Source of the DNA: Rhodocyclaceae bacterium
Lineage (GTDB): Bacteria > Pseudomonadota > Gammaproteobacteria > Burkholderiales > Rhodocyclaceae
Assembly (NCBI GenBank): GCA_025353195.1
Contig: JANXRC010000165.1
Coordinates: forward strand, 1 to 56,099
DNA length: 56,099 nucleotides
Direction of reading: 5' to 3'
Part shown: in pieces, positions 19,721 through 55,267 of the stretch
Position numbering within the stretch: the stretch's first letter is position 1
Layout of the letters: the number at the start of each line of letters is the position of its first letter
Position numbers and translations under genes: made by a program
The notes under the pieces: model-generated
Database searches by the model: none
Seen by the model: only the letters and a program-made list of their open reading frames with translations
Told to the model about the DNA's origin: nothing

Positions 19721-19796
19721 TGGTGGGCTGTGAGTGGCTCGAACACTCGACCTACGGATTAAGAGTCCGCTGCTCTACCAACTGAGCTAACAACCC
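19721..19796 (-). tRNA. tRNA-Lys (anticodon CTT)
   Basis: A 76-base cloverleaf on the minus strand with encoded CCA. The acceptor stem GGGTTGT pairs with ACAGCCC (one G-U). The D-arm is GCTCAGTTGGTAGAGC and the T-arm GAGTG-TTCGAGC-CACTC. The anticodon loop CTCTTAA places CTT at positions 34-36. It lies 23 bases from the second tRNA-Lys gene, so they are probably one transcript. Confidence 0.97.
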
Positions 19797-19819
19797 GAAA
19801 AACAGATTATATATTACGG

Positions 19820-19895
19820 TGGTGGGTCGGCCGAGATTCGAACTCGGGACCAACGGATTAAAAGTCCGCTGCTCTACCGACTGAGCTACCAACCC
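19820..19895 (-). tRNA. tRNA-Lys (anticodon TTT)
   Basis: A 76-base cloverleaf on the minus strand with encoded CCA. The acceptor stem GGGTTGG pairs with CCGACCC (one G-U pair). The T-arm is CCGAG-TTCGAAT-CTCGG. The anticodon loop CTTTTAA gives TTT, which reads AAA and AAG. It resembles the neighbouring CTT gene in the D-arm and anticodon stem, suggesting old tandem duplication. Confidence 0.98.
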
Positions 19896-49394: not shown

Positions 49395-49489
49395 CGAGCT
49401 TGGTAGGGTCTTTGCAGTGGCTGACTCAAGCAACGGGGCTCGACCAGGCTTCGGATCGATGCTTGCTCGATGGGCGTGAGGATGAACAA

Positions 49490-51226
49490 ATGACTGTACA
49501 AAGTGTCTCGCTGGTAATCGCCGGCAGCGGTGGCGCGGGAGTCGTCACCGCGGGCTCCCTGCTGCTGGACGCGGCTGCCAATGCCGGCTGGTATGCGTTG
49601 ATGAGCCGCTCGTCCGGGCCGCAGATTCGGGGCGGCGAGGCCGCCGCCATGCTGCGCTTCGCGACCGAGCCGATCATGTCGCACGATGACAGCTTTCACC
49701 TGCTGATGGCCGTCGATTGGGAGAACATCACCCGCTTCTCGGCCGAAATACCGCTGGTTGCCGGCAGCCTCATCGTCGGCGACCCGGCCCATGGCGATGC
49801 CCCGGTTGCCTTGCTCGGCGGCAAGCCGCGCCAGGCTGCGCTGGCGATGACCGAGATTGCCGGCAAGATCGAAAATGGTCGGCCGAACATGGTTGCCCTG
49901 GGCGCCATCGCCGCCTTGATCGGCCTGCCTCCGCAAGCGATGCAAGCCGTCGTCGAGAAGAATCTGCGGCGCAAGGGACAGGCCGCGATCGATGCCAGCA
50001 TGGCCGCATTCCACGCCGGCATCGCAGCCGCTGCGGACCTGCCCGCGATCCCGAAACTGCCTGCGGTCACCGCGGTGTCCGAGCCGCGCTGGAGCATCAC
50101 CGGCAACGAAGCCACCGGGCTCGGCGTGATACGCGGCGGCGTGCGCTTTGTCGCCGCCTACCCGATCACTCCCGCCACCGAAGTACTGGAATGGCTGGCG
50201 CCGTCACTGGCGAAAGTGGGCGGCGTGCTGGTTCAGGCCGAGGACGAACTGGCTTCGATCAACCAGATCATCGGTGCGTCCTACGGCGGCGTGCCGGCGA
50301 TGACCGCCACCTCCGGTCCGGGTCTTTCCCTGATGATCGAATCCCTCGGGCTGGCCGTTGCCGCCGAAGTGCCGATCGTCGTCGTCGACGTCATGCGGGT
50401 CGGGCCCTCGACCGGAATTGCCACCAAGTCGGAGCAGAGCGACCTCAACATCGCAGTTTATGGTTTGCACGGCGACGCGCCGCACATCGTCGTCGCGTCC
50501 AATTCGGTGGCCGACTGTCTGTTCACCACGCAATGGGCGGTGCATCTGGCCGAAAGCATGCAGGCGCCGACCATCGTTCTCAGCGATCAGGCGATGGGCC
50601 AGGCGCGGGCGATCATTCCGCGTCCGGCCGAACTGGCCTTCATCGGCCAACGCGAAACCGCCAAGGCGGCCGTCGAGGGCGAACGTTACCAGCGCTATGC
50701 CGTGACGGCCTCCGGTGTTTCGCCGATGGCGATACCCGGCACCGCGGGCCTGACGCATACCGCGGACGGGCTGGAGCACAACGAGTTCGGCACGCCGTCC
50801 TCGCAGGCGTCGGATCACCAGGCGCAAATGGACAAGCGCAGCCGCAAGCTGACGCAATTCAACTACGGCGACCACTGGGCCGACATCGAGGACGCGGAGG
50901 GCGGCGCCGGCGACATGGCGATCATCACCTGGGGCTCCTCGACCGGGCCGGCGCGCGAAGCCCTGCGCCGGTTCTCGGATGCGGGCGGCAAGGCGCGCCT
51001 GATTTCGGTGCGGCTGATCGCGCCGGTGCAGCCGGAACGAATGGCGGCCGCGCTCCATGGAATTACCCGCGCCCTTGTCGTCGAGCAGTCGCACAGCGGC
51101 CAGTTCCATCGCATGTTGCGGGCATTCTATGACCTGCCGCGCGAAACGCGTTCCCTGCATCAGGCCGGCCCGCTGGCATTCGGCCCCGGCCGGATCCTCG
51201 AACAACTCAAGACCTGGAGAGCGTGA
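49490..51226 (+). CDS. korA: 2-oxoacid:ferredoxin oxidoreductase, fused gamma-alpha subunit (KorA-like)
   Basis: 578 residues from ATG 49490, with GTGAGGA before it and a promoter upstream. The N-terminal gamma domain reads SVSLVIAGSGGAGVVTAGSL and SSGPQIRGGEAAAMLRF. The alpha domain begins about residue 210, with GGVRFVAAYPITPATEVLEW and MTATSGPGLSLMIESLGLAV, and ends with GKARLISVRLIAPVQ. This gamma-alpha fusion with a separate beta subunit is the KorAB layout of 2-oxoglutarate or other 2-oxoacid:ferredoxin oxidoreductases (as in Thauera). It decarboxylates a 2-oxoacid to acyl-CoA, reducing ferredoxin. The substrate is not evident. Confidence 0.9.
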   Translation: MTVQSVSLVIAGSGGAGVVTAGSLLLDAAANAGWYALMSRSSGPQIRGGEAAAMLRFATEPIMSHDDSFHLLMAVDWENITRFSAEIPLVAGSLIVGDPAHGDAPVALLGGKPRQAALAMTEIAGKIENGRPNMVALGAIAALIGLPPQAMQAVVEKNLRRKGQAAIDASMAAFHAGIAAAADLPAIPKLPAVTAVSEPRWSITGNEATGLGVIRGGVRFVAAYPITPATEVLEWLAPSLAKVGGVLVQAEDELASINQIIGASYGGVPAMTATSGPGLSLMIESLGLAVAAEVPIVVVDVMRVGPSTGIATKSEQSDLNIAVYGLHGDAPHIVVASNSVADCLFTTQWAVHLAESMQAPTIVLSDQAMGQARAIIPRPAELAFIGQRETAKAAVEGERYQRYAVTASGVSPMAIPGTAGLTHTADGLEHNEFGTPSSQASDHQAQMDKRSRKLTQFNYGDHWADIEDAEGGAGDMAIITWGSSTGPAREALRRFSDAGGKARLISVRLIAPVQPERMAAALHGITRALVVEQSHSGQFHRMLRAFYDLPRETRSLHQAGPLAFGPGRILEQLKTWRA

Positions 51227-52058
51227 TGGAAGCGGCTGCGCGAAAATACAAAGCCAAGGATTACAAGTCGGAGCTCAAGCCGATCTGGTGTCCGGGCTGC
51301 GGCGACTACACGGTACTCAACGCGCTGACCAGGGCGTTGGCCGAACTCGGATTGCCGCCGGAACAGGTCGCGGTAGTCTCGGGCATCGGCTGTTCGTCGC
51401 GCATCCCTGCCTATACCAGCGTGTATGGCTTCCATGGCGTGCACGGCCGGGCCTTGCCGGTGGCGACCGGGCTCAAGCTGGCGCGCCCCGATCTGACGGT
51501 GATTGTCACCGGCGGCGACGGCGACGGCTTCTCGATCGGCGGCAACCATTTCCTGCACGCCTGCCGGCGCAATGTGGACATGACCTACATCGTCATGGAC
51601 AACCAGGTGTACGGCATGACCAAGGGCCAGGCGTCGCCTACCACCGCTCCCGACTGGGAAGGCAGCAAGCTGACTCCGGAAGGAACCGGGATCAATCCAT
51701 TTCAGCCGCTGGTGGTCGGCCTGGCGTCGGGGGCTAACTTCATTGCCCGCGTCTCGAGCAGCGACCCGGTCAACATGGCGCAGATCATCGTCGAGGCCAT
51801 ACGGCATCCCGGGTTTTCGCTGGTCCAGGTGCTCAGCCCTTGCGTGACGTTCCGACCCGAACAGGCGGAATGGCGTGACATCGTGCGCACCGCGCTGGTC
51901 GACTACACCGACGATGCCGCGCGTGCGGCGCGCCGCCTGATGACCGACGACGGCTTCAACGTCGGCAAGGTCCTGTACAAGGGCGAACGCCCGCCATTCC
52001 GTCCCGAGTTCGAAAACACCGACGGTTCGATCGCCGAGCTTGAAGCGAAGTTCTCGCT

Positions 52059-52062
<4 letters not shown>
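51226..52062 (+). CDS. korB: 2-oxoacid:ferredoxin oxidoreductase beta subunit (KorB-like)
   Basis: 278 residues from ATG 51226, which shares its first base with the last base of the korA stop. It binds thiamine diphosphate through VTGGDGDGFSIGGNHFLHAC and MDNQVYGMTKGQASPTT. Cysteines WCPGCGDYTV, GIGCSSRI and LSPCVTF provide the [4Fe-4S] ligands. It forms the catalytic pair with KorA. The next gene overlaps its end by 4 bases. Length is normal for KorB (about 280). Confidence 0.94.
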
Positions 52063-52917
<855 letters not shown>

Positions 52918-52942: not shown

Positions 52943-55267
52943 ATGGGTATCAGGGACAAACTCGAGCGACTCGTCGCCCGCATGCACGACACGCCGCAGT
53001 ACAACTCGCAGGGCGCGGTGCTCTTCGTCGATCTCGAACAGCGCAAGACGCTGAAGAAGTATCTGCCTCTGGATGTCCTGCGCAATTTCCTCGGCGGACG
53101 CGGCGCCAACATGTGGTTGCTCTACAACCTGGTGGAAGAGGAACGCGATGCGCTAGATCCCGAGATTCCCCTGATCTTCGGTTCCGGCGTACTGACCAGC
53201 AGCATGCCATCGGCCACGCGCGGCAACATCACCAGCAAGTCGCCCGACAGCTATGCGATTCTCGACGCCAACGCCGGCGACTATTTCCCGTCCTTCCTGC
53301 GTTGCCACGGCTACGACCATGTCGTCCTGTACGGTCTCGCCGCAAACTGGACCCTGCTCAAGCTCTCCTATGGCAAGGAGGAATTTGTCGACGCCGCGCC
53401 CTACGTCGGCCTCGACAACCTCGACATGGCCGCAGCGATTCAACGCGACTTCAATTGCGTCGAGCGCGAGGACATGGCGCTGGCCCGGATCACCAGCTCA
53501 GGCGAGAATCAGGTCCTGTGCAGCGGCATCATGGGTGGCATCAAGGCGATCTGGGCGCGCGGCGGCGGCGGCGCCAAGATGGGTTCGCTGAAGCTCAAGG
53601 CCATCATGATTCATGGCGCGCCGAAGGATCTGCAACCCGTCGAGCCGATGGCCAAGTACAACAAGATCATCGGCAAGAAGATCATCTCGACCAGCGTGAT
53701 CAAGAATGCCCTGAAGATGGTCGGCACGCCTTTCCTCTACAAACCGAGCCGCGTCCTGTCCGCCCTCGGCACCAAGAACAATCAGGAGACGAGCTGGACC
53801 GCAGCGCTCGACGCCGACAATTTCGATCCCTATCGCCCCGGCATGGACGGTTGCTATCTCTGTCCCGTGCATTGCCGCAACCAGAACGACATGACGCCCG
53901 AAGCCGAGGGCGGCTGGGGCGCCGCGGCGCTCAAGGGGCTGACCGGCAACGCCAGCTACGACAAGGACCAGGCCTTGGTCGAGCACGGCAAGCAGCGCAC
54001 TTACAACGGCATCCACGGTGACGGCAAGTACGACAAGTACGACAAGGGCGACGGTCCGGAATACGTCACGCTCGGCAAGTTCGGCCCGATGATCGGCATC
54101 AAGGAGCCCGAGCAGGTGCTGCGCCTGAACAACATCCTCAACGACCTGGGACTGGATTCGGCATCCACCGGCAGTTCGATCGCCTGGGCCATGGAACTCT
54201 ACCAGCGCGGCATCATCACGCAGAAGGAAACCGGCGGGATCGACCTGACCTGGGGCAACTACGAGGTCATCGAGAAGCTGTTGTTCATGACCGCGAAACG
54301 TGAAGGCTTCGGCGACACCATCGCCGACTCGGCGCGCGCGGTCGAACGCGGCAAGTACCCGGCCGCCGCGCTCGACTACCGCATGGCAGTCAAGGGCCTG
54401 TTCCAGTCCGACCCGCACGATTCGCGCATCCTCAAGGCCTTCGCCCTCGGACTTTCGGTGGCGACCCGCGGCATGGATCACCTGCGCAACCGCGTCACCC
54501 TGGAAATCAACGCGCGCATCAACGATGACCCCGCGTTCAAGACGGCCCTGTACAACGGCACCGTGTCCGCCGCGCCGAACAGCTACGAAGGCAAGGAGTA
54601 TGCCGTTCGCAAGTGCGAGAACAATTACGCGGTGGGCGATTCGGTCGGCATGTGCCGCTTCAATACCAAGCTGTTCAACTCGCCGACCCTGCCCGACCTG
54701 AATGATTTTGCGACCCAGCTGACCTCGCTGACCGGCCAGGCCTTTGTCGAGCAGGAACTGGACGAGATCGGTCGCAATGTCACGGGTATCGAGCGGATGT
54801 TGAACTTCCGCTTCGGTCTGCGCGCCAAGGACGACACCTTGCCCCGTCGCTGGTTCGAGGAAGCCCTGGCGACCGGGCCCTTCGCCGGCGAGAAGATCGA
54901 CCGCGCCGAGTTCGAGGGCATGAAGGCGCGCTTCTACAAGCTGACCGGCCTCAACGCGGAAGGCACGCCGGCGGTCGAATGGCACGAAAAGCTGTCGCGC
55001 CTGATCACCGGATTTGCCGTCCGTGTCGAGTTGCCGAAGCAACTGCCGGGCGCTCCGGAACAGATCGTCGTCATCGACGAGAAGGTGAGCGACGTGGCAG
55101 GACTGCGCAAGGCCCTGTTGCGCAAACTTCCGGAGGCCGCAGGAGAGTTGAATGACAGCACCTGGAACGTTGCCGTCAACGGCGGCATGGTGCTTTCGGG
55201 AGAAAAGGCGGTACACATTTCCAGCGGCGACCGGGTCGCCCTGGTTCCGATCATCGCCGGCGGCTGA
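52943..55267 (+). CDS. aor: AOR-family tungsten-type oxidoreductase with C-terminal MoaD/ThiS-like domain
   Basis: 774 residues, well above the usual about 600-650. Residues 1-685 are the aldehyde:ferredoxin oxidoreductase fold: FLGGRGANMWLLYNLV (pterin binding), GNITSKSPDSYAI, [4Fe-4S] ligands GCYLCPVHCRN (Cys304, 307, 311) and Cys571 in VGMCRFN. A final segment (about 690-774) has a beta-grasp pattern, TGFAVRVELPKQLPG, VAGLRKALLRKLPEAA, WNVAVNGGMVLSG and VHISSGDRVALVPIIAGG. It ends in Gly-Gly, as MoaD and ThiS do. It would reduce ferredoxin on aldehyde oxidation or the reverse. AAGGAG precedes the ATG. The substrate is unknown. Confidence 0.9.
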   Translation: MGIRDKLERLVARMHDTPQYNSQGAVLFVDLEQRKTLKKYLPLDVLRNFLGGRGANMWLLYNLVEEERDALDPEIPLIFGSGVLTSSMPSATRGNITSKSPDSYAILDANAGDYFPSFLRCHGYDHVVLYGLAANWTLLKLSYGKEEFVDAAPYVGLDNLDMAAAIQRDFNCVEREDMALARITSSGENQVLCSGIMGGIKAIWARGGGGAKMGSLKLKAIMIHGAPKDLQPVEPMAKYNKIIGKKIISTSVIKNALKMVGTPFLYKPSRVLSALGTKNNQETSWTAALDADNFDPYRPGMDGCYLCPVHCRNQNDMTPEAEGGWGAAALKGLTGNASYDKDQALVEHGKQRTYNGIHGDGKYDKYDKGDGPEYVTLGKFGPMIGIKEPEQVLRLNNILNDLGLDSASTGSSIAWAMELYQRGIITQKETGGIDLTWGNYEVIEKLLFMTAKREGFGDTIADSARAVERGKYPAAALDYRMAVKGLFQSDPHDSRILKAFALGLSVATRGMDHLRNRVTLEINARINDDPAFKTALYNGTVSAAPNSYEGKEYAVRKCENNYAVGDSVGMCRFNTKLFNSPTLPDLNDFATQLTSLTGQAFVEQELDEIGRNVTGIERMLNFRFGLRAKDDTLPRRWFEEALATGPFAGEKIDRAEFEGMKARFYKLTGLNAEGTPAVEWHEKLSRLITGFAVRVELPKQLPGAPEQIVVIDEKVSDVAGLRKALLRKLPEAAGELNDSTWNVAVNGGMVLSGEKAVHISSGDRVALVPIIAGG

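Follow-up and report, generated by a model that had tools for sequence, protein, structure and literature searches.

A conserved family of AOR-type oxidoreductases with a fused, Gly-Gly-ending MoaD-like domain, a candidate in-cis sulfur carrier

How a sulfur carrier is paired with one particular tungsten enzyme is an open question, and a 56,099-nucleotide contig of a Rhodocyclaceae bacterium (JANXRC010000165.1, assembly GCA_025353195.1; hereafter the window) raises it in a direct form, with carrier and client joined in one chain. Positions 52943-55267 of the forward (+) strand encode a single protein of 774 residues, from an ATG start to a last codon that ends at 55264 and is followed by the stop; the open reading frame (ORF) is uninterrupted, with a third-position GC content of 0.85. 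Both AFOR domains and all four cluster cysteines are present, which places the protein in the AOR / tungsten oxidoreductase (WOR) family. A preliminary description, made from the letters alone, had read the C-terminus as a covalently fused MoaD/ThiS-type tail with a free Gly-Gly (GG) end, and the Pfam ThiS match, AlphaFold models and homologues all agree with that reading, as do the coordinates and the IIAGG ending that it gave.

The tail domain begins at about residue 689 (position 55007) and runs to the final residues IIAGG. Over residues 710-774 the Pfam ThiS family (PF02597) scores 27.7 bits when the full-length protein is searched (cut-off 22.5) and 32.6 bits when the tail is searched alone, and it recognises the tail in all aligned members of the family (48/48, E 0.01 or better). 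Two AlphaFold models, one full-length and one of the tail only, both yield a MoaD/CysO/SAMP1-like beta-grasp domain, the fold that had been expected from the sequence, with predicted strands at residues 693-696, 708-711, 741-745, 748-750 and 764-769 and helices at 718-728 and 730-736. The best Foldseek match of the tail is MoaD (1fm0, 1nvi), while the fold search places it equally near CysO and MoaD, and also near SAMP1.

To place the tail among known carriers, we compared the fused tails by hhalign with free proteins of related genomes (18 MoaD, 10 ThiS, 15 AorD-like and 11 AorE-like, chosen by C-terminal motifs, so that the GG ends of these sets are by construction). The resulting probabilities were 96.6 for MoaD, 35.4 for ThiS, 28.5 for AorD-like and 0.2 for AorE-like proteins. 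The AorD-like set covers the related genomes, with WorX of other clades outside the comparison; at 12 of its 15 places an AOR match is found on the same contig, and the other three, of which two are in genome G007 and one is in G011, are close to contig ends. Among NCBIfam models, moaD (TIGR01682) is the top match of the window's tail, at 22.8 bits against an equivalog cut-off of 66.15, and it matches 40/48 tails (E 0.01 or better); the free MoaD of the same genome passes it with 87.8 bits. On these hhalign and NCBIfam scores the tail apparently belongs to the MoaD branch but outside the MoaD equivalog, and capture of an AorD is not favoured. It resembles MoaD, the small subunit of molybdopterin synthase, in its GG end and in its best Foldseek and profile matches, but MoaD is a free protein. 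The AorE-like protein, of about 90 residues and found beside AorD-like genes (loci L167-L180; L167 on the + strand), also ends in Gly-Gly-Gly, and shows no profile relationship with MoaD.

The fusion is a conserved family across beta-proteobacterial, gamma-proteobacterial and Desulfuromonadales lineages. A search of genome contigs with an eight-member alignment gave 77 loci, which are the best 80 of 203 relatives (best segments 66-95% identical), and more distant tail-less forms may therefore exist. A GG end was present in 110 of 114 family ORFs (first 106 loci, duplicates included; all at least 59.7% identity), the remaining four being cut by contig ends, and in 93/93 distinct complete proteins, that is, those whose alignment reaches query residue 770 or beyond. 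The tail is accordingly not the variable extension lacking GG that the preliminary description had named as the alternative. Resting on the ThiS matches, the GG ends and both AlphaFold models, the fusion is beyond chance. Over the 48 aligned members the tail evolves faster than the core (mean entropy 1.34 versus 0.70 bits, about twofold), with both terminal glycines invariant, and core and tail distances correlate (Mantel r 0.79; 0/2000 permutations as high), so the tail has travelled with its own core. No conserved internal start from which the tail could be made separately was found across the 48 members: the commonest, codon 660, is a start codon in 22/48 with a Shine-Dalgarno-like 4-mer in 7, and codon 709 is a start codon in 18/48, again with such a 4-mer in 7, as against 40/48 at the gene's own start, where it was counted over a slightly different stretch.

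The fusion has been noted before, which lessens the novelty implied by the preliminary description. For Azoarcus, a joining of MoaD to AOR was already mentioned, with the words "might be fused", by Iyer, Burroughs & Aravind (2006; PMC1779556), whose Table 1 places MoaD C-terminally; this is the same architecture, and Aromatoleum and Azoarcus members fall within the present family. In its available portions that account mentions the fusion without an analysis of conservation, structure or active site. The same source lists an actinobacterial sulfite reductase with a C-terminal ThiS, another redox enzyme with a carrier in this position, although of another family and cofactor. AorD, WorX and UblC are small MoaD- or ThiS-like proteins whose genes neighbour those of AORs, and a role in supplying the pterin cofactor is supposed for them (PMC6365974, PMC13328260, PMC11323500). 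Arndt et al. (2019; PMC6365974) regard separate aorD and aorE products as putative maturation factors, and a 2026 WOR paper (PMC13328260) gives the function of its ThiS-like WorX as unknown; on these partial texts, the function of both AorD and WorX is unproven. AorD, WorX and UblC are separate proteins; by profile the fused tail is nearer to canonical MoaD than to the AorD-like proteins of related genomes. The main text of PMC13328260 does not mention MoaD, its sole "fused" referring to ModBC, and PMC12096430 has no match for MoaD terms. We found no experimental study of an AOR-MoaD fusion in the open-access literature, outside which most subscription journals lie.

The core to which this tail is attached departs from its better known relatives, a finding that goes beyond the preliminary description. 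Residues named for aldehyde-oxidising AORs in the available source text are Thr243, Glu313, Tyr427 and His448 (PfAOR numbering). The Thr243 and His448 equivalents are kept in 48/48 aligned members (T262 and H513 in the window protein), as are the four cluster ligands C304, C307, C311 and C571, assigned by alignment to the PfAOR cysteine motif. In contrast, V, I, T, S or A occupies the Glu313 position in 48/48 members, with Glu in none, and the Tyr427 equivalent is His in 48/48, at positions conserved in most aldehyde-oxidising relatives. HMMER alignments to five PDB AORs concur at the GPEY motif, and the genome's own AorB-type protein, placed in the same alignment, has Glu and Tyr at the two positions. 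Unlike class I WOR / PfAOR (1aor) and AorB (8c0z), the fused proteins have both residues replaced and carry an extra C-terminal domain. They also have an insert of about 50 residues (318-367) with many invariant positions where 1aor holds only about five (301 to 307); AlphaFold confidence over it is low. These alignments suggest the fused branch as a candidate for chemistry other than standard aldehyde oxidation, and with Glu313 and Tyr427 replaced the family should not be filed as aldehyde oxidases without an assay.

The window's genome (G000) holds a moaD-moaE-moeA group (contig C68), thiS (C226) and MoeB (C143); a ThiF-like protein of C277, nearest to TcdA and below its cut-off, was considered as an activator and not counted. 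It also encodes a second fused AOR paralogue (C46; L161:9718-12042), about 74% identical and ending in IAGG, which sits between a MarR-like gene and a small, presumably dodecin-like gene, with UbiX- and PaaK-like genes near, in a locus part of which we take to be for phenol degradation. An AorB-type AOR on C269 is followed, within less than 3 kb, by an AorD-like ORF. Within the genus, tail-less AorB-type AORs have a GG-ending small protein nearby and for fused genes none is recognised, a comparison confined to these two AOR types. A third type, a 654-residue AOR-family protein that is perhaps of BamB type, is encoded near a contig end on C202 (L164), in a gene group that also includes ferredoxin-like and large redox proteins. 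None of the short ORFs at the 77 fused loci was matched by a MoaD, AorD-like, ThiS or AorE-like profile or by the MoeB locus; in 54 of these loci the flanks extend 2 kb or more to either side. Of the fused tails themselves, the MoaD profile recognises only 32 and the tail profile 83, which means that a free carrier of divergent sequence might have escaped the search. The pattern fits a tail that would perform the job of a separate carrier at fused loci. A TupA-like protein was present in 11/13 genomes searched, in every case below the family cut-off.

Weighing these observations, we consider it rather probable that the tail is an in-cis, MoaD-type sulfur carrier for the enzyme's own pterin cofactor, activated by MoeB; the enzyme would be an AOR-family bis-pterin metalloenzyme whose metal is probably tungsten. 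Activation of the terminal glycine would best explain an invariant, flexible GG in a fast-changing domain, and given that the genome encodes MoeB, MoaE and a TupA-like protein, such activation would most simply serve to provide sulfur for the enzyme's own cofactor. In the proposed sequence of events, the C-terminal glycine would be adenylated by the cell's MoeB and turned into a thiocarboxylate, which, with MoaE as the likely partner, would give sulfur for the pterin dithiolene, repeatedly, to reach the four sulfurs of two pterins. With the carrier tethered to the apo-enzyme, a sulfur or cofactor assembly step would be reserved for one client, in parallel with what separate AorD or WorX may do for other AORs, and the mature core would act in anaerobic aromatic or 2-oxoacid metabolism, with the ferredoxin of the preceding gene as its electron acceptor. 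The preliminary description had offered a self-supply of pterin sulfur, a tail acted on by MoeB/ThiF-type activators, and a ubiquitin-like mark; among these, own pterin sulfur by way of a MoeB-type activator is best supported.

Several findings weigh against a dedicated carrier. The free moaD/moaE pair is complete in the window's genome, so the tail is not needed for general pterin synthesis, and the tail's moaD score lies far under the equivalog cut-off. Only one MoaE was found in this genome; BLAST found no MoaE linked to the fused gene at the loci, the single match from the MoaE locus being a MoeA-like gene of L092, and in the 99% complete genome G008, which also carries a fused gene, nothing matched MoaE. 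Just 3/77 loci, of whose proteins few were scanned, showed a tungstate-transporter-like gene (L092 and L077 through profile matches, L086 because it clustered with these two). With its usual catalytic Glu and Tyr replaced, the core may be atypical. Finally, elemental sulfur restored defective syntheses in Thermococcus mutants of ubiquitin-like proteins (Ubls), according to the available part of PMC11323500.

An improbable alternative, though one that some of the same facts favour, is that the tail is a docking module only, binding MoaE, MoeA or another maturation factor so that cofactor is brought to the enzyme, without itself being activated: free MoaD and MoaE are already in the genome, and the tail scores under the MoaD equivalog. 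Docking would have no need of an invariant terminal GG, which is kept in 93/93 proteins while most tail columns vary. It is similarly improbable, in our judgement, that a tail thiocarboxylate acts on the finished enzyme, sulfurating the metal site or, in the manner of CysO, a substrate, in a reaction other than aldehyde oxidation. The replacement of the Glu313 and Tyr427 equivalents in 48/48 members, with T262, H513 and the four cysteines kept, and the equal closeness of the fold to CysO and MoaD would suit this alternative, but sequence profiles favour MoaD, and no sulfur-metabolism enzyme was seen among the nameable recurrent neighbours, most neighbour clusters being without annotation.

The carrier reading also has a more speculative extension, to which we give a small chance, in which the metalloenzyme would be self-sulfurating: the tail thiocarboxylate would complete the dithiolene or a metal sulfido ligand in cis after the apo-cofactor has bound, and the remodelled site, with Glu and Tyr replaced, would carry out chemistry other than aldehyde oxidation. 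As far as the available text of PMC11323500 goes, in T. kodakarensis GOR is activated by a single one of the Ubls, whereas FOR and AOR can be activated by each of the three, and its authors considered that the pterin might gain sulfur after binding its target; the self-sulfurating enzyme, if real, would follow in cis the client-specific route that they suspected. Joining carrier and client covalently would take client-specific delivery to an extreme, and since the fusion also occurs in named isolates (Aromatoleum strains), such delivery could be tested directly.

Ubiquitin-like conjugation, in which other proteins would carry Gly774 on their lysines, or the enzyme would be marked for turnover by its tail, seems very improbable. 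Archaeal Ubls serve as both modifiers and sulfur carriers (PMC11323500, in the part available), and the tail's fold is near SAMP1, but a modifier of 774 residues is unlikely and no positive sign of conjugation was seen, conjugation genes such as JAB proteases not having been searched for. Scarcely credible is a relic, an old fusion whose tail is now functionless: the tail is more variable than the core and the genome has a separate MoaD, but the GG is invariant and no full-length tail-less member occurs among the 114 ORFs from beta-proteobacterial, gamma-proteobacterial and Desulfuromonadales lineages, the four without a tail being contig-end cuts.

Table 1. Features of the fused gene and its upstream neighbours, in window coordinates
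Feature	Positions	Strand	Evidence
AOR-family protein with C-terminal MoaD-like domain	52943..55267	+	ORF call, Pfam
AFOR_N domain, residues 25-225	53015..53617	+	Pfam PF02730, E 1.1e-42
AFOR_C domains 2 and 3, residues 241-684	53663..54994	+	Pfam PF01314, E 1.5e-87
[4Fe-4S] Cys ligands 1-3 (C304, C307, C311)	53852..53875	+	aligned to PfAOR Cys motif
Conserved insert of about 50 residues (318-367), Cys motif to GPEY motif	53894..54043	+	alignments
V375 at the PfAOR Glu313 / AorB Glu331 position	54065..54067	+	alignments
H492 at the PfAOR Tyr427 position	54416..54418	+	alignments
H513 at the PfAOR His448 position	54479..54481	+	His in 48/48
C571, fourth [4Fe-4S] Cys ligand	54653..54655	+	alignment of members
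MoaD-like beta-grasp domain, residues 689-774 (86 residues)	55007..55264	+	AF2, Pfam ThiS, hhalign, fold search
Terminal Gly-Gly, free C-terminus	55259..55264	+	conserved in complete homologues
2-oxoacid:acceptor oxidoreductase alpha	49490..51226	+	TIGR03710, 549.6 bits (cut-off 482.75)
2-oxoacid:acceptor oxidoreductase beta	51223..52062	+	TIGR02177, 273.3 bits (cut-off 261.9)
Rubrerythrin/ferritin-like protein	52059..52592	+	Pfam PF02915
YfhL-type 2x[4Fe-4S] ferredoxin, possible electron partner	52660..52917	+	NF033683, 110.9 bits (cut-off 86)

The fused gene belongs to a run of + strand genes in the window's last stretch (Table 1), in which it follows the two 2-oxoacid:acceptor oxidoreductase subunits, the rubrerythrin-like protein and the ferredoxin and precedes what we take to be lgt. 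The start of the alpha subunit was chosen (the longest ORF begins at 49400), as was that of the ferredoxin, inside ORF 52546-52917. Over 79 sources (the 77 loci, L161 and the window), recurrent neighbour clusters were KorA-like (33), PaaK-like (32), MarR (27), ferredoxin (25), DctM (23), rubrerythrin-like (21) and KorB (19), with KorA, KorB, rubrerythrin and ferredoxin labelled from window members, PaaK and MarR from one representative each and the others by eye; the PaaK representative scored 671.4 bits against a phenylacetate-CoA ligase cut-off of 646.3. Two fused genes occur in 8/79 sources. These neighbours point to aromatic or 2-oxoacid metabolism, and our suggestion is that the core may catalyse a reaction at the aryl aldehyde/acid level, or a related one, whose product goes on to a CoA ligase while the operon's ferredoxin takes up the electrons. 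In a Geobacteraceae metagenome-assembled genome (MAG), the fused gene is followed by one gene and then by an ABC ATPase and TupA-, TupB- and MoeA-like genes (L092:11242-14928). A TupA-like gene is also present at L077; none of these Tup and MoeA matches reaches its equivalog cut-off.

Judged by record title, the hosts comprise, on the beta-proteobacterial side, MAGs (Sulfuritalea-like and others) as well as Aromatoleum and Azoarcus, on the gamma-proteobacterial side Motiliproteus and Amphritea, and beyond these Geothermobacter and other Desulfuromonadales or deltaproteobacterial MAGs. A fused-type match (at least 70% identity) was found in 20/24 other genomes of the genus and in 1/16 from other families of the order. 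The family is sparse in wider samples, occurring in 9/369 genomes of the class, the window's own included (E 1e-60 or better), and in 1/398 of the phylum, namely its own genome only (E 1e-45 or better). Elsewhere in the window, positions 19721-19895 hold two adjacent tRNA-Lys genes with anticodons CTT and TTT.
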